Of a stretch of 34,349 nucleotides of DNA, positions 833-32,250 are shown piece after piece; positions within the stretch are counted from its first letter, which is position 1, and each line of letters begins with the position of its first letter. Source of the DNA: a virus; IMG/VR virus record IMGVR_UViG_3300010400_000040, positions 1 through 34,349 of that record; one strand, given 5' to 3'. The notes below the pieces were generated by a model, which was not told where the DNA came from, made no database searches, and was given only the letters and a program-made list of their open reading frames with translations. The position numbers and the translations under genes are program-made.

Positions 833-1017
833 ATGACTTAAAACAAGCTGCTATTGAATTAAAACACGAGAAAATATTTCTCGAAATAAAAATTCGAAAA
901 TTAATTGAAGAGTTTCAAAACAAAACCGGTTTCGAGGTCCAGGAAGTGGTCATAACAGAAATTCTCAACTATGGGGATAAGGCAGTAAGGGAGTATTACG
1001 TAAAACTTGCATTATAA
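829..1017 (+). CDS. Small helical protein, unknown
   Basis: This 62-residue protein begins MNDLKQAAIELKHEKIFLEI and is predicted by eye to be two amphipathic helices followed by a short VVITEILNYGDKAVREYYV segment. A GGAG ribosome binding sequence sits at 817-820, inside the end of the preceding gene. Its start overlaps the upstream stop as ATGA, and its stop overlaps the start of the glycosyltransferase as TAATG, so translation of the three genes is probably coupled. The second half resembles small phage proteins that carry an Ile/Val strand followed by a Tyr-rich end, but no function can be assigned. Confidence 0.6.
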   Translation: MNDLKQAAIELKHEKIFLEIKIRKLIEEFQNKTGFEVQEVVITEILNYGDKAVREYYVKLAL

Positions 1018-1748
1018 TGAACCTATCCCTTGCCATAACAACCTTTAACAGATATGAATTCACCATCGAATCATTCTGCCAGGTGATCGATGATCCGCGA
1101 ATTGATGATATAATTATACTTGACGACTGCTCAACAGATGGAAGTTTTGAAAAACTGGTCAGACATTTTGCAGGAATTGAGAAGGTCAGGGTAATGAGGC
1201 AGCTTAAGAATCGGGGGATGAGCTTGAACAAAAGGGATGCTATAAGTTTTGCGAGGAACGAGTGGGTGATAATCTTTGACAGTGATAATGTAATCACACC
1301 ATCGTTCATCGATGCCTTCGAAAAATCTCGCGTGCTAACTGAATCATTTGGTGAAGTTTTGGAAATAGATGACCCTTATTACAAGATTATCTATTGCCCC
1401 GACTTCGCCTCGCCAAGGTTCAATTATTTGAAATACTCTGGGAAAATAGTAAATAGGGAAAATGTAAAAAGAGTAATTAAAGATGAAATGGGCAACTGCT
1501 TGCTCAACACATGTAATTGCATAATTAACAGGGACGAATATCTTAGAGTATACAAGCCTAACCACGAAATGATCGCAACAGACACGATCTGGATGAATTA
1601 TTTATGGCTGAATGCCGGCAATTGGTTTTACGTAGTCCCTGACATGCAATACTTTCACCGCGTTCACCCCGGAAGTGGATTTCTGGAGGATGCGGCTTAC
1701 AATATGAAACAGGCAGAGAAGATAAAAAAAATGATCATGGCGCTATGA
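1017..1748 (+). CDS. Glycosyltransferase family 2 (GT-A fold)
   Basis: The 243-residue protein begins MNLSLAITTFNRYEFT, the classic GT2 opening strand. A nucleotide-binding LDDCSTD motif lies at residues 35-41 and the metal-binding DSD at 88-90, preceded by the conserved NRGMSLNKRDAISFA stretch. GT2 enzymes transfer a sugar from a nucleotide-sugar donor to a glycan, lipid or protein acceptor in the cytoplasm; the donor here cannot be told from sequence. No membrane segment is apparent, so it is likely soluble. Its start overlaps the preceding stop by one base and its stop overlaps the next gene as ATGA. It is the first recognisable enzyme of a cassette that also holds GT11, exostosin-like and GT7-like enzymes and three methyltransferases. 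Confidence 0.9.
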   Translation: MNLSLAITTFNRYEFTIESFCQVIDDPRIDDIIILDDCSTDGSFEKLVRHFAGIEKVRVMRQLKNRGMSLNKRDAISFARNEWVIIFDSDNVITPSFIDAFEKSRVLTESFGEVLEIDDPYYKIIYCPDFASPRFNYLKYSGKIVNRENVKRVIKDEMGNCLLNTCNCIINRDEYLRVYKPNHEMIATDTIWMNYLWLNAGNWFYVVPDMQYFHRVHPGSGFLEDAAYNMKQAEKIKKMIMAL

Positions 1749-1909
1749 AAGAAAAATTATTGACTTATCTGGCTGACAGGATTAAGCAAGAGGCCAGCTC
1801 CGCCGAGGAATATGTGCAGGAAATTGGAGATGAAACTAAAGCCGATGAGCATCTTGCAAAAATGGCCGCTTTTCAGGAAGTTGCTCGTTACGTAGAATCA
1901 AATCTTTAA
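1745..1909 (+). CDS. Small acidic helical protein, unknown
   Basis: A 54-residue frame starts at the ATGA overlap with the GT2 stop and ends with TAA at 1907-1909. It begins MKEKLLTYLADRIKQEASS and is rich in Glu, Ala and Lys, probably a helical hairpin with no Cys. It is short enough to be missed by gene finders, but the stop/start overlap and the way it fills the gap between GT2 and the next gene argue that it is real. I recognise no family. A small adaptor or regulator of the neighbouring transferase would fit but is speculation. Confidence 0.6.
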   Translation: MKEKLLTYLADRIKQEASSAEEYVQEIGDETKADEHLAKMAAFQEVARYVESNL

Positions 1910-1912
1910 TTC

Positions 1913-2254
1913 ATGACCATCCTCCAACCATTCCAGTTAAAAAGATACTTCACCAAAGAGCAGGAAAAAGATATGGAGAAAGATTTGGTGGGATATTTTA
2001 CCGGAAAAGCAAAGATCGGACTTTATACTATAGTGACCGAAAGCCCGGGTAGGAAGACAGACTATTATGTGGGGTTTATAGTTGAGCAGCCAGATAATCC
2101 CCGTCCGTTTATTATAGCGGTGCTTATTGAGGAAAAGAGGAAAACGTCAAAGGATTACTTTATGAAAGTGGCCGATCAGATTGCTGAGAAGGCAGATAAA
2201 TTACCTGAAAGAAAAAAGGCTTTAATTAAAAATCTTCAATCAATATTTAATTAA
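1913..2254 (+). CDS. Hypothetical protein, unknown
   Basis: The 113-residue protein begins MTILQPFQLKRYFTKEQEKD. It has an N-terminal charged helix, a central beta-type segment (GLYTIVTESPGRKTDYYVGF, then RPFIIAVLIEEKRK) and a C-terminal Lys-rich helix ending KKALIKNLQSIFN. The alternating hydrophobic pattern suggests a small alpha/beta fold. It starts 4 bases after the previous stop and its TAA overlaps the start of the fucosyltransferase as TAATG. I do not recognise a domain. Its place between two glycosyltransferases suggests it belongs to the same transcript but does not define a role. Confidence 0.65.
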   Translation: MTILQPFQLKRYFTKEQEKDMEKDLVGYFTGKAKIGLYTIVTESPGRKTDYYVGFIVEQPDNPRPFIIAVLIEEKRKTSKDYFMKVADQIAEKADKLPERKKALIKNLQSIFN

Positions 2255-2991
2255 TGGTTACTTGTAAGCTATGGGCCGGGGCCGCCAACCAGTTATTTAT
2301 GATCAGTGCAACGATTTGCCATGCTTTAAGAATGAATACAAGTTGCGCCTTCCCCAAAAAGACTATTAATCCAAAAATATGGAGAACTTATATTCATAAT
2401 CTTCCTGAGGTAAGGCCAGGATATTCGACAAAGAATTACTTCAAACAGCCAGATCATTCTTTTACGCCTATCCCCGATGAGCAGGATATTACATTAGAGG
2501 GATATTTCCAGAGTGACAAATATTGGTATGCGCATAAGGAACAACTAGGTGAGATTTTAAGATTTGAATACAAGCCAGCTGAATATGTTGCCATTCATGT
2601 GAGAAGGGGGGATTACCTCTTATATGCTGACAGGTTCCCGGTACTACCCACTGCATACTACCAAACGGCAATTGATTACATGACTGGCGAAGGACACGAA
2701 TTATTCAGAATTTTTTCCGACGACATCCCATGGTGCAAAAAATTCTTTGGTGACAGTTTGATCGATCCCGATTTTGAGTATTCAATTGGAAAAGATCCAA
2801 TTCAGGATATTAAAGACATGTTCAATGCCAAGGCATTTATAATTGCAAATTCGACCTTCAGCCTTTTCCCGGCTCTATTAAGGAGCGATAGCCCAATTGT
2901 GATTTCCCCGTCAGAACACCGGTGGTTTGGGCCCAATGGACAGGATATGAATTCGTTGGACCGATTGCCCGATAGGTTTATTAAAATATAA
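2254..2991 (+). CDS. GT11-family fucosyltransferase-like protein
   Basis: The 245-residue protein carries HVRRGDY at residues 115-121, the donor-binding signature of GT11 alpha-1,2-fucosyltransferases (also shared with GT23/GT37-type folds). Near the N-terminus, WAGAANQLF at 7-15 matches the family's G-L-G-N-Q-L/M-F opening with changes, and the later FSDDIPWCKKFF and NSTFSLFPALL segments match the family's conserved C-terminal half. Known GT11 enzymes transfer L-fucose from GDP-fucose in alpha-1,2 linkage, usually to galactose. The length is near but shorter than the usual 280-300, mostly from a compact middle. Fucose transfer is inferred. A GT7-like galactosyltransferase further along the operon could supply a galactose acceptor. 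Confidence 0.88.
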   Translation: MVTCKLWAGAANQLFMISATICHALRMNTSCAFPKKTINPKIWRTYIHNLPEVRPGYSTKNYFKQPDHSFTPIPDEQDITLEGYFQSDKYWYAHKEQLGEILRFEYKPAEYVAIHVRRGDYLLYADRFPVLPTAYYQTAIDYMTGEGHELFRIFSDDIPWCKKFFGDSLIDPDFEYSIGKDPIQDIKDMFNAKAFIIANSTFSLFPALLRSDSPIVISPSEHRWFGPNGQDMNSLDRLPDRFIKI

Positions 2992-2995
2992 GCAA

Positions 2996-3511
2996 ATGAC
3001 CCTCCAAGACCTCGCAATCAAATATGGTTCAGATAAAGCAGAACATGGATATTGTCCATTCTATGAACAAACCTTGCCAAAATCGCCTAAAAAGATATTG
3101 GAAATAGGGGTTTTTAAAGGTGCTTCAATTCGTATGTGGAAAGAATGGTTTCCTGAATGCCAAATTCACGGTCTTGATCTGTTTATAGAAAACCCAATCC
3201 CGGATATACCTGGCATTATCTGGCACAAAGGCAATCAATGTGATTGGGAATTACTGGAACTGTTGAGAAAAGAAAATTTTGATATTATTATCGATGATGG
3301 AAGTCATGCCAGCCGTGACCAGCTAATGACATTTTTCGGTTTATTTAATGGTAACGAATATTATATCGAGGATATTCATTGTTGTGATCATGAGTTTTAC
3401 AGGAACGGGCTGCCTTTTTCTCAAACTGCCAAAAGGTTGTTTTCTGATAATAACAATACATCTGTATTTTATGACTGTCAATCACCCATAGTTCTAATAC
3501 AATCAATATGA
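2996..3511 (+). CDS. Class I SAM-dependent methyltransferase, macrolide/sugar O-methyltransferase-like
   Basis: The 171-residue protein has the SAM-binding motif LEIGVFKGAS at residues 35-44, an acidic strand-end HGLDLF, and IDDGSH at 99-104, which is typical of the mycinamicin/rhamnosyl O-methyltransferase group (MycE/MycF type, metal-dependent sugar O-methylation). The opening MTLQDLAIKYGSDKAEHGYCPFYE is also typical of that group, where a conserved YGSDK motif precedes the fold. It is shorter than most members, which run to about 200-250 residues, so the C-terminus may be reduced. It overlaps the next methyltransferase by 4 bases as ATGA. Methylation of a sugar hydroxyl on the glycan made by this operon is the likely role. 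Confidence 0.85.
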   Translation: MTLQDLAIKYGSDKAEHGYCPFYEQTLPKSPKKILEIGVFKGASIRMWKEWFPECQIHGLDLFIENPIPDIPGIIWHKGNQCDWELLELLRKENFDIIIDDGSHASRDQLMTFFGLFNGNEYYIEDIHCCDHEFYRNGLPFSQTAKRLFSDNNNTSVFYDCQSPIVLIQSI

Positions 3512-4257
3512 GTTGGAAGCTTGACAAAAAAAACACAACCTCCTATCTTGAGATTTGCCAACGGGCGGTAGATGATGAGGAAACATTTGCCAATTTCAGG
3601 CAAATGGACCCGATCAACATGATCATCGAGAATAGCCCTGAAAAGAGTGGCCGCGAATATTGGAATTGTATAAATGACCGACACCCGCGACTGCTACCCC
3701 ACTTTGACAAATTCCAAACCTCGGATGATATTGGGAACCCCGCTAAAATGTTCGTAGGTGATTATGTATTATCTCCCTCTACACTAAGATATATTAAAAC
3801 ACTTGGCGACCTTGATAATTTCTTTGGTTCATTAAGTGGTATGACAATAGCTGAGATCGGAGCCGGTTACGGGGGTTTGTGCAAAATAATTCACGATGTT
3901 TACACGCCCGCAGACTATCACATTTTTGATCTCCCTGAACCTATTGCACTACAAAAAAAGTTTCTTTCATCGTTCGGCATAAATCCCATAACAGATGAAT
4001 ATCCCGATGAGATTGATCTTCTTATAGCAATGTATTCCTGGTCGGAATTGTCAGAAGAACTACAGGTGGAATATCTAAACAAGGTTATTAAGAAGGCAAA
4101 AAACTGCTACATCATGTTGAACTATGATATGGATAGTTGTTATCAACTGTTAATGGATGCCTTCCCATCTGCTAACATTTCAGACTGGAACATTTTCTAT
4201 AATGAGCAGAATACCGAATATGCCCCATATAACCGGTTTATAATTATAAAAAATTAA
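3508..4257 (+). CDS. Putative sugar O-methyltransferase
   Basis: The 249-residue protein has a class I methyltransferase core with EIGAGYGGLCKII starting at residue 116 and a following HIFDLPEPIALQKKF segment, where the Asp and Pro residues resemble the second SAM-contact strand of the 'putative sugar O-methyltransferase' family found in polysaccharide gene clusters. The N-terminal 100 residues are family-specific and include the words REYWNCIND and FVGDYVLSPSTLRYI. Residues YSWSELSEE fit the family's motif after the fourth strand. It starts on the preceding stop (ATGA) and ends three bases before the FkbM gene. Substrate is unknown, probably a sugar of the glycan made by the neighbouring transferases. 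Confidence 0.83.
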   Translation: MSWKLDKKNTTSYLEICQRAVDDEETFANFRQMDPINMIIENSPEKSGREYWNCINDRHPRLLPHFDKFQTSDDIGNPAKMFVGDYVLSPSTLRYIKTLGDLDNFFGSLSGMTIAEIGAGYGGLCKIIHDVYTPADYHIFDLPEPIALQKKFLSSFGINPITDEYPDEIDLLIAMYSWSELSEELQVEYLNKVIKKAKNCYIMLNYDMDSCYQLLMDAFPSANISDWNIFYNEQNTEYAPYNRFIIIKN

Positions 4258-4260
4258 TCG

Positions 4261-4896
4261 ATGCTCCTTAATTTCCCCCAACTGGTTTCAAAATACAAAG
4301 TCAAAGCCGATGGATGTATCCATGTAGGCGCCCACTACGCCCAGGAACACCCCCAATATGCCGCTGCTGGAATAAAACGCTTCGTATACATTGAACCATG
4401 TGCCGATGCCTTCAATGTTCTTAAAAACAAGTTCGGCGCCCATCATCACATTCAGCTTTTCAACTACGCCTGTGGTGATACGGAAGGTCAACAGGTCATG
4501 TATACCGGTAGCCAGAACGAAGGCCAGAGTAATAGCCTTCTAAAGATGGATAAACATCTTCAGATCCACCCGGGAATAACCTTACCCAATACCGAACTGG
4601 TTAGCGTTAAGAGATTGGATAGTCTGGGACTCGCTCACAAGGGATATCAATTACTGGTCATGGATTGCCAGGGATATGAGGGCCGAGTCTTAAAAGGTGG
4701 AATGGAAACGCTGAAGCAGATGAATTACGTCTATACCGAGATCAACCGGGACACTGTTTATAAGGATTGTACCCTAATTGAGGAATTAAATGAATTGCTT
4801 GATGATTTCATGCCTGTAGAAATCGGGGGCTGGGTCGGTGGCATGTGGAGCGATGCCTTTTATGTCCGTAAAACCCTTTTAATGGCGTCAATATGA
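4261..4896 (+). CDS. FkbM-family methyltransferase
   Basis: The 211-residue protein shows the FkbM layout. CIHVGAH begins at residue 19 (SAM-binding glycine loop). It is followed by FVYIEPCADAF, where the acidic residue binds the SAM ribose, then NYACGDTEGQQVMY and the VKRLDSLGL region. MDCQGYEGRVLKGG is the strongly conserved FkbM motif near the C-terminal third. FkbM proteins methylate hydroxyl groups on sugars or polyketides and are common in polysaccharide loci. It overlaps the next gene by 4 bases. It is the third methyltransferase in a row, so multiple positions on one glycan, or alternative sugars, may be capped. Confidence 0.9.
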   Translation: MLLNFPQLVSKYKVKADGCIHVGAHYAQEHPQYAAAGIKRFVYIEPCADAFNVLKNKFGAHHHIQLFNYACGDTEGQQVMYTGSQNEGQSNSLLKMDKHLQIHPGITLPNTELVSVKRLDSLGLAHKGYQLLVMDCQGYEGRVLKGGMETLKQMNYVYTEINRDTVYKDCTLIEELNELLDDFMPVEIGGWVGGMWSDAFYVRKTLLMASI

Positions 4897-5762
4897 GACT
4901 CAACGCTCAACAACTGGAAAGATATCACCAACGCATAGCACTGGCCAATGCTATTCAAAAAGTGCATCCCGAGTACCAACCAAAACAAGTTCACCGATAC
5001 CCGGAAGACAATACCCATGAGTTCGAGCGGTGGTTTAGTGACAACACATCAGTCGAGGAATTAATTGGAAAGGCAAGAACCTACCTTCCCATTTTCTGGA
5101 CGGCCTATTGGTGCAATAACGGTTATGGAAGAAAAGAAAAAGGACATAACCGGTTACAGAGATATATTGACTCACTGCCCAGAAACAAAACTTACTTTAC
5201 TATCTGCCAATATGATGATGGATGTATGGTTGACTTCAAAGATTTGGACATTAAGATATTCGGAATGAGTGGGGGACGAATTGACTACCCTATCCCACTA
5301 CTCTGTATGCCTCATAAGTTTGAATTCCCAGGAATAGAGAAAGATATTTTTTGTTCGTTTGTAGGAGGCGATACTCATCCAATAAGGCGGGAACTGGTTA
5401 AACAATTGGAAGGAAAAGATGGGTATTATGTTACGATGAAAAAGCATTCATTACAAGATTACTGCCGCATAATGGCAAGGTCGGTATTTGCATTGTGCCC
5501 AAGGGGGTATGGGAAAACCAGCTTCAGAATATCCGAGGCAATACAATATGGTGCGATACCGGTTTATGTGAGTGATGAGTTTATCACACCTTATGATGAA
5601 TACGCTTATTACATGCTCTGCGAAACCAATATCTCCAACGCTGTCAACGAAATAAGCCGTTATCACAATGAGACAATTGCTTTGGCACAGCAAAAAGTAA
5701 AAACAGCTTCAGAACTTTTCACTTACCAAGGCTGCAAACAAAAGATACTGGAGAATATATGA
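4893..5762 (+). CDS. Exostosin/GT47-like glycosyltransferase
   Basis: The 289-residue protein resembles the exostosin (GT47) C-terminal GT-B domain. The key segment ALCPRGYGKTSFRISEAIQY followed by GAIPVYVSDEF is the family's donor-binding region, where the pattern CPxGxxxxSxRxxEAxxxGxIPVxxSD is conserved. An upstream CSFVGGDTHPIRRELVKQL also matches the usual 'F-x-G-x-x-x-x-x-R' strand. No membrane anchor is seen, unlike animal exostosins, as expected for bacterial and phage forms. The N-terminal 80 residues have a charged helix. Bacterial members act in polysaccharide and surface glycan synthesis; donor and linkage are unknown. It overlaps both neighbours by 4 bases, so it is translationally coupled. 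Confidence 0.88.
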   Translation: MRLNAQQLERYHQRIALANAIQKVHPEYQPKQVHRYPEDNTHEFERWFSDNTSVEELIGKARTYLPIFWTAYWCNNGYGRKEKGHNRLQRYIDSLPRNKTYFTICQYDDGCMVDFKDLDIKIFGMSGGRIDYPIPLLCMPHKFEFPGIEKDIFCSFVGGDTHPIRRELVKQLEGKDGYYVTMKKHSLQDYCRIMARSVFALCPRGYGKTSFRISEAIQYGAIPVYVSDEFITPYDEYAYYMLCETNISNAVNEISRYHNETIALAQQKVKTASELFTYQGCKQKILENI

Positions 5763-6166
5763 GGAAACAACTCCACACTCTCGACGCCGGGATATTCCCT
5801 TTCAAAGTAATGCTATCATCGGGATTCACGTATGATGAAATCATTAAGGAACTTAAGAAACAGAAATGCGATCAATGGGCATTAGGATTAAGAGATGATA
5901 AGGAGTTCATTGGAGGTGGGAAAAATTTCGCGCTTCACCGAAATATAAACCATCCGAAGAATGGTGAGTCAACTTTCTTCTATATAATTTTTATTGAACC
6001 ATTTAACTTTTCTGATTGGTCAATGTGTAAACTTGCCCATGAAGTACTTCATATTTGCCAGTTCATGTTGCCATTAATGCTTGACCGGAATAGAGAGTAT
6101 GAATGTGAGGCTTATTTACATAGTCATTTAATGGAGCAGGCTTTAAAAAAATTGAGAGGAAGATGA
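5759..6166 (+). CDS. Small zincin-like protein (HEVLH motif)
   Basis: The 135-residue protein has LAHEVLHICQFM, containing HExxH at residues 94-98, followed about 17 residues later by YECEAYLHSH with Glu at 115 and 117, as expected for the third zinc ligand of gluzincin-like folds. The first 70 residues form a plausible beta-rich lead-in. No signal peptide is present, so it would act in the cytoplasm or in the virion. Metallopeptidase function is not proven, because several small phage zincin-like proteins are of unknown activity. It lies between the exostosin-like transferase and an unknown gene with ATGA overlaps on both sides. Confidence 0.7.
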   Translation: MRKQLHTLDAGIFPFKVMLSSGFTYDEIIKELKKQKCDQWALGLRDDKEFIGGGKNFALHRNINHPKNGESTFFYIIFIEPFNFSDWSMCKLAHEVLHICQFMLPLMLDRNREYECEAYLHSHLMEQALKKLRGR

Positions 6167-6492
6167 ATACAATAACTGAATTGGATAAAATTCCAAAGTC
6201 GGAATGGCCGGAAATTTATTGTAGTCTTAACAGATGGATAATTCCAAACCAATTAATACACTTAAGACCTAACTGGTGGCCTTATATATTACATTACGAT
6301 AACTTTTCAGACGTTAAAACTTTTATAGACCCGCTTATGGAACATATAAAGAACCATATACCCGATAAGGTACTAAGTCGAGAATGGAATAAGGATACCA
6401 TGTCTGATGAACAACATGAACGATGGTATAATTTATCTGAAAATGAAAAGTTGAATTTTAATGCAACCGACAATCATAATCCCATACCGTAA
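6163..6492 (+). CDS. Hypothetical protein, Trp-rich
   Basis: The 109-residue protein begins MNTITELDKIPKSEWPEIYC and contains many aromatic residues, including LRPNWWPYILHYDNF. The C-terminal part is acidic and Asn-rich, ending NATDNHNPIP. It overlaps the zincin gene by 4 bases and the GT7-like gene by 32 bases in a different frame. I do not recognise a domain. The overlap with the following gene could reflect translational coupling, and the last 11 residues may be dispensable. No Cys pattern or membrane segment suggests a function. Confidence 0.6.
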   Translation: MNTITELDKIPKSEWPEIYCSLNRWIIPNQLIHLRPNWWPYILHYDNFSDVKTFIDPLMEHIKNHIPDKVLSREWNKDTMSDEQHERWYNLSENEKLNFNATDNHNPIP

Positions 6493-7084
6493 CCGCCAAA
6501 AGCATATCCAACAATTCCTTCCTCATTACAGGAAGCTGTTACCGGCCACTACATTCTTAGTCATCGAGCAATCAATAAATAAACCATTCAATGCTTTTAA
6601 GCTACTTAACGTTGGCGTCAAGCTTTCATGGGATACCGCTGACTACTTTTGCTTCCATGATGTGGATATGCTGGTTCAAGGAAAGCCTGATTATTCTTAC
6701 CCGGAGAATCCTACCCACCTCGCCACAAATGCATCTCAATTTAACTGGCAAATGCCATTTCCGGAATACTTTGGAGGTGTTACATTATTCAATAAAGCTG
6801 ATTTCGAGAAGTGTAACGGCTTCAGCAATAACTTTTTTTCATGGGCCGGAGGCGACAACGAGATGTATTATAGGGTGAAATCCGTGGGTCTTAAAATAAC
6901 CAGGCGTCCGCACAGATACTTATCTTTGCCTCATCCTAAATCCCATCCTACAGGGTTTGATCCAGTGAGACAAAAGCAGGCCGAACAGCCACGGAAAGAT
7001 GATGATGGCTTGAGTCATGTGGATTTTAAGATTATTGGGGAGAAGGAAATACAAAATGGGAAAATTATAACTGTTGAGATATGA
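6461..7084 (+). CDS. GT7-like (beta-1,4-galactosyltransferase-like) glycosyltransferase
   Basis: The 207-residue protein has the GT7 pattern in order: TIIIPYRNR near the N-terminus, FNAFKLLNVG at residues 43-52 (family pattern FNR-A-LLN-G), FHDVDM at 65-70 (metal-binding DxD region), EYFGGVTLFNKADFEKCNGF at 102-121 (family YFGGV), and SWAGGDNEMYYRV at 127-139 (family GWGGEDDD-R). Eukaryotic members transfer galactose or N-acetylgalactosamine from UDP-sugars to terminal GlcNAc. Bacterial and phage forms are less studied. The DNE in place of EDD keeps acidic character. This enzyme would be expected to act on the same glycan as the GT2 and GT11 enzymes. The ATG at 6461 gives the complete fold. 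Confidence 0.88.
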   Translation: MQPTIIIPYRNRQKHIQQFLPHYRKLLPATTFLVIEQSINKPFNAFKLLNVGVKLSWDTADYFCFHDVDMLVQGKPDYSYPENPTHLATNASQFNWQMPFPEYFGGVTLFNKADFEKCNGFSNNFFSWAGGDNEMYYRVKSVGLKITRRPHRYLSLPHPKSHPTGFDPVRQKQAEQPRKDDDGLSHVDFKIIGEKEIQNGKIITVEI

Positions 7085-26018: not shown

Positions 26019-26501
26019 CTATGCCTTGAATGCGCTGTCATTTCTCAGTAGTTTTAGTCCTCGTACGATCTGATTCCTCACCGTATGAACCGAGATCCCC
26101 AGTTTCCCCGCTATCTGGGGGTTAGTCAGTCCTCCCCAGAATCTCATTGTAACTACCCTGCGGGTCTGGGCCGGCAGTCCTGCCAGGGCCCGGGCGATGT
26201 GGGCGAAGACCTCTGCGTCCAGCTGGGCTACCTCATCCACTTCAGGCAGGGTGCGCAGGCGCCGTTCTTTCATGCCCTCGTGTTGCAAATAGTTCAAGCA
26301 GGCATTATGAACGATACGGAACAGCGGGTGATCGTCTATTGGTCGTCCGCCTGTGATCAGCTTAACCCACACATCCATCACTACATCCTCTGCTGCCTGC
26401 CTGTCGTTTAGGATTCTCCAGGCATAGTAGAGAAGCGGGATATAGTGCAGTTTGAAAGACTGCTCTATGGTGAGTGAGGGGCTGCGGTGCTGGGTGTTCA
26501 T
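26019..26501 (-). CDS. ECF-type RNA polymerase sigma factor
   Basis: The 160-residue protein has sigma region 2 (LLYYAWRILNDRQAAEDVVM, residues 23-42, followed by DVWVKL) and region 4 with a helix-turn-helix (NPQIAGKLGISVHTVRNQIV, residues 127-146, followed by RGLKLLR). No anti-sigma partner is visible beside it. ECF factors direct RNA polymerase to specific promoters. In Bacteroidetes they often come with FecR/TonB systems, none of which is present here. The gene is clearly richer in G and C (for example around 26160-26280) than its AT-rich neighbours, which suggests acquisition from a different background. It overlaps the upstream 148-residue gene by 4 bases, so it is in the phage's early operon. 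Confidence 0.88.
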   Translation of the reverse strand: MNTQHRSPSLTIEQSFKLHYIPLLYYAWRILNDRQAAEDVVMDVWVKLITGGRPIDDHPLFRIVHNACLNYLQHEGMKERRLRTLPEVDEVAQLDAEVFAHIARALAGLPAQTRRVVTMRFWGGLTNPQIAGKLGISVHTVRNQIVRGLKLLRNDSAFKA

Positions 26502-31395: not shown

Positions 31396-32250
31396 TCATA
31401 GCAACTCATATTGTTCAATTGATTTAAAAATCTGTAATGCAACCTGCGGCACTATTGCATTTCCTAAAGACTTAAGTCGGTCCATCCAATCGGGAACCCC
31501 ATCATCTCCTCCACAAACAGGGGATTGAGTAGGGAATTCGTCCCATCCGCTGCTACTGCAGCCAGATTCAATCCATGCTTTCCGGACTTCTGCGAGGGAG
31601 AGAGTTTCCTTTGCCTGTTCTCGTTCGGTGAGCTGCGTGGTGTCGGTAATAATCCCTTCGATGCCATGACTGCTAAGTTCATCCCATAATCCTGACCCGA
31701 TTTCCGAAGAATTCGATTGCCCATAACTCTTGCATCTTCCCTTTCCAAAGGCATTACTGTCCGAGGCGTGGGCAATAATCCAGATCCTGTCTCTTCTGTG
31801 CGGGGCGTCGACACCGCAAGCTGGAAGTAGAAACGGGAGCACTTCGTAGCCTTCAGCTTCAAGGTCAGCCTGCACCTGGTCGAATACCAGCCCTCCATTC
31901 CAATTAGTAAGGCCGCGAACGTTCTCGCCCACAATCCAGTGCGGGGAAATCTCCCGAATTGCTCTAAGCATCTCCGGCCAGAGGTGGCGATCATCTTCAC
32001 TGCCCTTTCTTTTTCCTGCTGTGCTGTAGGGCTGACAAGGAAATCCTCCGGTAATAATATTGATCCTTCCACGGTAAATGCTAAAGTCTGTTGTCTTGAT
32101 GTCCCCATGTTGAATGCTATTTGGGAAATGCTTTTTAACTACTTTGTTACAGAACTCATCTATCTCGCAATGAAAAATGTTTGTCCACCCCATCCAATGT
32201 GCGGCTAGCTGAAAACCTCCGATTCCGTTAAACAATGCCCCATGCGTCAT
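31396..32250 (-). CDS. C5 cytosine-specific DNA methyltransferase
   Basis: The 284-residue protein has the C5 methyltransferase motifs in order. ALFNGIGGF (residues 5-13) is motif I. GGFPCQPYS at 68-76 holds the catalytic Cys with PC at 71-72 (motif IV). ENV at 109-111 is motif VI. HRRDRIWIIA at 151-160 is motif VIII. LGNAIVPQ at 262-269 is motif X. The region between motifs VIII and X, where the target recognition domain should lie, is only about 100 residues and low in recognisable structure (KETLSLAEVRKAWIESGCSS). The protein would methylate cytosine at C5 in a recognition sequence that cannot be told. A second 214-codon frame overlaps it (see 31464-32108), and a G8 tract lies shortly before the start codon. 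Confidence 0.92.
   Translation of the reverse strand: MTHGALFNGIGGFQLAAHWMGWTNIFHCEIDEFCNKVVKKHFPNSIQHGDIKTTDFSIYRGRINIITGGFPCQPYSTAGKRKGSEDDRHLWPEMLRAIREISPHWIVGENVRGLTNWNGGLVFDQVQADLEAEGYEVLPFLLPACGVDAPHRRDRIWIIAHASDSNAFGKGRCKSYGQSNSSEIGSGLWDELSSHGIEGIITDTTQLTEREQAKETLSLAEVRKAWIESGCSSSGWDEFPTQSPVCGGDDGVPDWMDRLKSLGNAIVPQVALQIFKSIEQYELL
31464..32108 (-). other. Overlapping second frame inside the methyltransferase gene, possible dual coding
   Basis: The open frame of 214 codons in the +1 register runs entirely inside the C5 methyltransferase gene. It contains TGLWARTFAALLIGMEGWYS, LQLKATK-like basic text, two LLPTPR repeats (SGLLPTPRTVMPLE and KGLLPTPRSSPNEN) and ends LNPLFVEEMMGFPIGWTDLS. 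The words LLPTPTxxD and LNPxFVExMMGFPxGWT occur in many phage proteins linked to DNA cytosine methylation (from memory, not searched). The main frame gives an equally sensible ending (VPDWMDRLKSLGNAIVPQ) from the same DNA. It could be a translated overlapping gene, or a remnant left when an ancestral methyltransferase changed frame. Confidence 0.4.

Follow-up and report, generated by a model that had tools for sequence, protein, structure and literature searches.

In the C5-cytosine DNA methyltransferase (MTase) M.EcoHK31I, the small subunit is encoded in another reading frame inside the large one. The usual layout of these enzymes is monomeric, with a recognition region and motif IX that follow motif VIII and precede motif X in a single polypeptide. 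According to the account given in PMC3404938 (citing Lee, Kam & Shaw 1995), M.EcoHK31I (YGGCCR) is composed of two polypeptides, with motifs I–VIII and X in the large subunit and motif IX in the small one. In M.AquI (alpha/beta) the enzyme is split over two polypeptides after motif VIII, and both motifs IX and X are in the small subunit (PMC3404938). A second protein in a phage methylase gene may also be of another kind, as in the ShiLan domain, an out-of-frame HNH endonuclease within a phage methylase gene (PMC11855218). In this work we analysed a window of 34,349 nucleotides (positions 1 to 34,349 of the IMG/VR virus record IMGVR_UViG_3300010400_000040), and we show that positions 31396–32250 hold two nested same-strand genes, P1 and P2, which probably make together one two-subunit C5-cytosine DNA MTase.

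The two frames of the locus

P1 is the MTase frame (31396–32250, minus strand, 284 amino acids); in profile searches it matches PF00145 (E=3e-42), TIGR00675 (3e-35) and phrog_363 (1.4e-72). It carries on the minus strand, in order, motif I (FNGIGGF, 32212–32232), motif IV with the catalytic Cys (GFPCQPYS, 32023–32046), motif VI (ENV, 31918–31926), motif VIII (APHRRDRIW, 31780–31806) and motif X (GNAIVPQ, 31444–31464). The motif residues, including PCQ in motif IV and ENV in motif VI, are invariant across 71 aligned relatives: G9 and G12 in motif I (alignment A2), G69, P71–P74 and S76 in motif IV, E109-N110-V111 in motif VI, A149, H151, R153 and R155 in motif VIII, and G263, N264, A265 and P268 in motif X. 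P1 differs from the usual monomeric layout after motif VIII: motif IX was looked for in the P1 frame and none is in frame, the match of M.HhaI to the P1 family profile is limited to positions 2–169, i.e. up to motif VIII, and residues 168–236, between motif VIII and 'FPTQSPVC', contain no conserved region in the family alignment.

P2 is nested in P1 in the +1 frame (31464–32108, minus strand). It starts with an ATG and codes for 214 amino acids, its N-terminal half overlaps motif IV of P1, and it is matched by phrog_1008 (E=3.9e-17), as are 75 of the 75 relatives scanned. It contains two copies of GLLPTPR, at residues 110–116 and 152–158. The first LLPTPR element (31761–31778, minus strand; G110–L112 and T114 at least 90% conserved) is a candidate target-recognition segment, and the MTase codons that face it are unconserved in the alignment of relatives; the second lies at 31635–31652 (minus strand; L154–P157 at least 90% conserved). 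Closer to the end is a motif IX-like segment, LNPLFVEEMMGFPIGW (31482–31529, minus strand), identified by a profile match to the in-frame VIII–X segment of monomeric actinophage MTases, and the protein ends in LNPLFVEEMMGFPIGWTDL. P2 stops directly at motif X of P1, whose first codon starts at the last base of the P2 stop codon. A preliminary description of this DNA had pointed out both frames, with motifs I, IV, VI, VIII and X in the first, two LLPTPR repeats and the C-terminal ending in the second, and all of these are confirmed, on the minus strand.

No HNH, other endonuclease or other known domain was found in P2 with the Pfam and NCBIfam models, and on this ground a homing endonuclease or other inserted element was rejected. 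A sequence search among solved structures gave no match for P2, and the protein modelled alone, from an alignment of 70 relatives, is predicted with low confidence (pLDDT 58.6, pTM 0.28). No restriction gene was seen beside the pair in the window. Elsewhere in the window, positions 26019–26501 (minus strand) encode an ECF-type sigma-70-family factor (Sigma70_r4_2, E=1.3e-15; Sigma70_r2, E=7e-7), and positions 1017–7084 (plus strand) hold consecutive genes on the strand opposite to that of most of the phage genes, among them several glycosyltransferases (family 2, family 11 and exostosin GT47), an unusual cargo for a phage.

Constraint on both frames and the start of P2

Several measurements bear on whether P2 is a coding sequence. 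In synonymous-codon permutations of the window MTase gene, a +1 ORF at least as long as the observed one arose in 118 of 100,000 trials, and none of its length arose in 20,000 redraws from the phage's own codon usage; 9.2 stops are expected in +1 across the P2 stretch, and the longest +1 stretch in 12 other measured genes of the window is 32–94 codons. For selection, 102 non-redundant relatives were compared with within-gene synonymous shuffles, which preserve each MTase protein and its codon usage. Across MTase codons 48–165 these relatives have 11 stops in +1, compared with 433 in shuffles (minimum 398), and a +1 identity of 0.541 compared with a null of 0.335 (sd 0.0017); across codons 237–262 the +1 identity is 0.657, compared with 0.273 in shuffles. 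Outside P2, stops are not depleted (294 for 193 expected in codons 1–46, and 208 for 76 in codons 264–284) and the +1 identity barely exceeds the null. In the MTase frame, synonymous diversity at conserved residues is 0.40 in the overlap and 0.63 outside for 4-fold sites, and 0.46 and 0.72, respectively, for 6-fold sites. Each of the two frames codes for protein and is maintained by purifying selection.

These results make it practically inconceivable that P2 is a chance or shadow ORF, whose conservation would be a by-product of that of the MTase protein. The DGxPxW of the MTase does make part of MGFPxGW likely in +1, but the synonymous permutations, which keep the MTase protein, reproduce neither the scarcity of stops nor the identity observed, P2 is better conserved than the MTase frame in the variable region between motifs VIII and X (0.33 versus 0.21), and the canonical C5 MTases sampled have no such +1 ORF. 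The preliminary description had left a choice between two proteins encoded by the same DNA and a fossil of a frame change between two versions of the enzyme. The first of these is borne out, since separate database searches found homologues for each frame, stops are depleted and synonymous diversity is reduced in the overlap. The second fails in so far as it means that one frame is a dead remnant, which is extremely improbable: the frame that holds the LLPTP/IX segment differs between lineages, which shows that frame changes did happen, but both frames are intact and constrained in hundreds of divergent phages and prophages. What survives of it is the origin, as the occurrence of this segment in either frame in different lineages means that a past frame change may have produced the arrangement.

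The start of P2 is an ATG in 99 of 104 relatives, a count helped by the start-picking rule, which prefers ATG; the third-base T that this requires is present in 48% of comparable codons. Among loci of the gammaproteobacterial branch, 67% have a Shine-Dalgarno-like site ahead of the first P2 ATG, versus 26% for control ATGs. There is no Shine-Dalgarno site before the P2 start of the window, and in the window's own family such sites are rarer before P2 than in controls; this depletion fits Bacteroidota and gives no positive signal. The position of the start is relevant to the possibility that ribosomes enter P2 from the MTase frame through programmed frameshifting, so that core, recognition part and motif IX would form one fused chain. 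The colinearity of the two frames with an ordinary enzyme and the existence of relatives that appear naturally frame-swapped (loci L190 and L278–L281) are in keeping with such a fusion. Nevertheless we regard it as very unlikely, because an ATG is conserved for P2 at codon 47–51 of the MTase, because its conserved N-terminal half would be superfluous to a fusion made after motif VIII, and because of the Shine-Dalgarno-like sites before P2 starts in one branch; moreover, motif X is back in frame 0, so a fusion would need two shifts. In locus L190 (a Paludibacter MAG, 2086–3303), the ORF that contains P2 is matched by the MTase profile as well, owing either to a natural swap of frames or to a sequence error of one base midway through the pair.

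Motif IX and the frames used by relatives

A scan of IMG/VR with P2 gave 587 relatives, and one with P1, in which the +1 frame plays no part, gave at least 599. Leaving aside loci cut by contig ends and two loci with a broken main frame (L057 and L168), a +1 ORF of about 190–360 codons is present in all relatives retained from the two scans. This ORF starts within the first 20% of the MTase, in most cases around codon 38–51, and ends 13–52 codons upstream of the MTase stop (L063 is an outlier), and the longest +2 stretch in these relatives has a median of 35–39 codons. The P2 profile also found 130 relatives in 84,980 bacterial and archaeal genomes, and the 80 loci examined among them belong to Bacteroidota, Bacillota, Pseudomonadota, Acidobacteria and others. 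PF00145 loci collected by Pfam in 20 Bacteroidota genomes (n=30) fall into two clean classes: 17 have P2, with a +1 ORF of 227–371 codons and motif IX in +1, and 13 do not, their longest +1 ORF being 33–186 codons; this ratio is not a population frequency, because the 20 genomes were picked for holding a P2 locus. The MTases of four small enterobacterial R-M plasmids have no +1 ORF of this kind. A phage-like plasmid, Bacteroides finegoldii plasmid 28 (1501–2568), carries a nested MTase/P2 pair at a locus for which just one short hypothetical protein is listed, in a collection whose gene table is incomplete.

The identity of the P2 C-terminal part is suggested by actinophages in which the same elements are found in frame. 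In gp71 of the mycobacteriophage WillSterrel, motifs I–VIII, LLPTP elements, LNPAFPEWMMGWPTGWVT and motif X are in a single frame and form one protein, which matches both phrog_363 and phrog_1008; the best solved match of the monomer's predicted structure is M.HhaI. In Jarcob (gp69/gp70), RemusLoopin (gp34/gp35) and TaylorSipht (gp40/gp41) the core and the recognition/IX/X part are two genes, as they are in Camperdownii (gp76/gp75), where they overlap by 182 bases. The P2 profile matches the VIII–X segment of the monomers with 97.4% probability (E=1.2e-11). In a direct profile comparison with ordinary MTases, the sole sensible alignment of the P2 segment is with canonical motif IX (LTPRE..RLQGFPD), a weak and ungapped match (P=0.0014, probability 18%), so the putative assignment of motif IX to P2 leans on the in-frame relatives. 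The LLPTP elements are a candidate recognition segment by their position. The +1 text had been associated with phage methyltransferase-linked proteins in the preliminary description, and rightly so, as it most likely represents the motif IX/recognition part of the enzyme. Homologues of P2 outside the overlap are found for its C-terminal half, in actinophages, in frame or as separate genes, but none was found there for the N-terminal half.

The arrangement of the motifs varies among related loci. Of 334 loci that the motif pattern could classify, 297 have IX in +1 with X in the MTase frame; all motifs are in one frame in 29, and IX and X are together in another frame in 8, these loci being non-independent samples, with two of the five seed sets picked by P2 itself. 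A further 36 of 370 loci have no IX/X pair by pattern, likely because of the strictness of the pattern, short contigs or other MTase types. Loci L278–L281 show a mixed form, with LLPTP in the +1 ORF and IX and X in frame 0, which is a possible intermediate between the one-frame and nested enzymes. The different placement of the LLPTP/IX segment among loci means that the recognition/IX part is carried in different frames in related phages.

P2 could instead be a real overprinted accessory protein that is not an MTase subunit and acts, for instance, in the regulation of P1 or against restriction. Such a function would agree with the poor prediction of P2 alone and with an N-terminal half that has neither a known domain nor a homologue outside the overlap. 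We consider it unlikely, since the P2 C-terminal segment matches the VIII–X segment of monomeric MTases, since exactly that segment is missing from P1, and since P2 sits in +1 within an MTase in 80 of the 80 genome loci examined and is found without P1 in none of them.

The most probable reading is the two-subunit enzyme: both frames are coding, they co-occur, P1 lacks motif IX, and the C-terminal segment of P2 corresponds to the in-frame VIII–X segment of monomeric relatives. P1, in frame 0, would provide the AdoMet-binding and catalytic core (motifs I–VIII) together with motif X, and P2, in frame +1 with its own ATG, would provide the small-domain functions, i.e. the LLPTP recognition segments and motif IX; the DNA for motifs IV–VIII is overprinted by the N-terminal half of P2. 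Since P2 ends where motif X starts, the core–recognition–IX–X order of an ordinary enzyme would be kept on the DNA, spread over two frames. The two proteins would be translated from separate starts on one mRNA, P2 independently of P1, and would assemble into a physical complex able to methylate a target site; its probable role would be the methylation of the phage's own DNA against host restriction. More tentatively, these loci may all derive from one enzyme whose recognition/IX part changed frame repeatedly, giving the one-frame, two-gene, nested and mixed forms, of which the nested one became fixed across several bacterial phyla; the overprinted N-terminal half of P2 might serve to dock the recognition part onto the core encoded by the same DNA.

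Comparison with known enzymes and annotations

In double-stranded DNA phages it is unusual for two genes on one strand to overlap over a long stretch with strong conservation of both frames, and the P1/P2 overlap occurs in hundreds of viral contigs as well as in bacteria of several phyla. Should P2 be the recognition subunit, the annotation of many phage MTases covers only half of the enzyme; expressing the annotated gene by itself in a heterologous test would then require that the nested gene be left intact, and the determinant of specificity would have to be looked for in a gene often omitted from annotations. The coexistence of one-frame, split and nested forms also offers a natural series for studying the origin of overlapping genes.

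Parts of this arrangement are present in existing annotations. The families phrog_363 (P1) and phrog_1008 (P2) are both labelled 'DNA methyltransferase' in PHROGs, where nothing is said of the nesting or of how the motifs are divided. Paenibacillus phage Shelly (gp55/gp56, 'g55 internal gene') and Escherichia phage K1ind1 (ORF29/ORF28) have likewise nested genes, already annotated as two; these are single instances, in which the shared enzyme and the family are not stated. In Porphyromonas phage018a (2245–3192) P2 is annotated as a hypothetical protein and the overlying MTase frame is unannotated, which is the reverse of the usual omission. No paper on a family-wide MTase/P2 overlap was found in the literature searched, most subscription papers being outside its reach, and no functional paper was found there for the 'Mte8-like' label of some phage records.

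Like the ShiLan domain, P2 is an additional protein encoded out of frame by a phage methylase gene, but ShiLan is a mobile insertion that codes for a homing endonuclease, whereas P2 has no HNH match, spans the catalytic core and is fixed in the family. The plan of M.AquI is broadly followed by the actinophage pairs of Jarcob, Camperdownii and RemusLoopin; the window locus differs from it in that motif X stays in P1, not in the small subunit, and in that the large gene contains the small one. The division of motifs resembles that described for M.EcoHK31I, as P1 has motifs I–VIII and X and lacks IX, and P2 has the putative motif IX. The two differ in that, as far as the enzyme is described in PMC3404938, the recognition domain of M.EcoHK31I is predicted in its large subunit, whereas the recognition-like LLPTP elements of the window are in the small one. 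We regard the P1/P2 pair as a new variation on the two-subunit plan already known for C5 MTases, one that is widespread and poorly covered by annotation.
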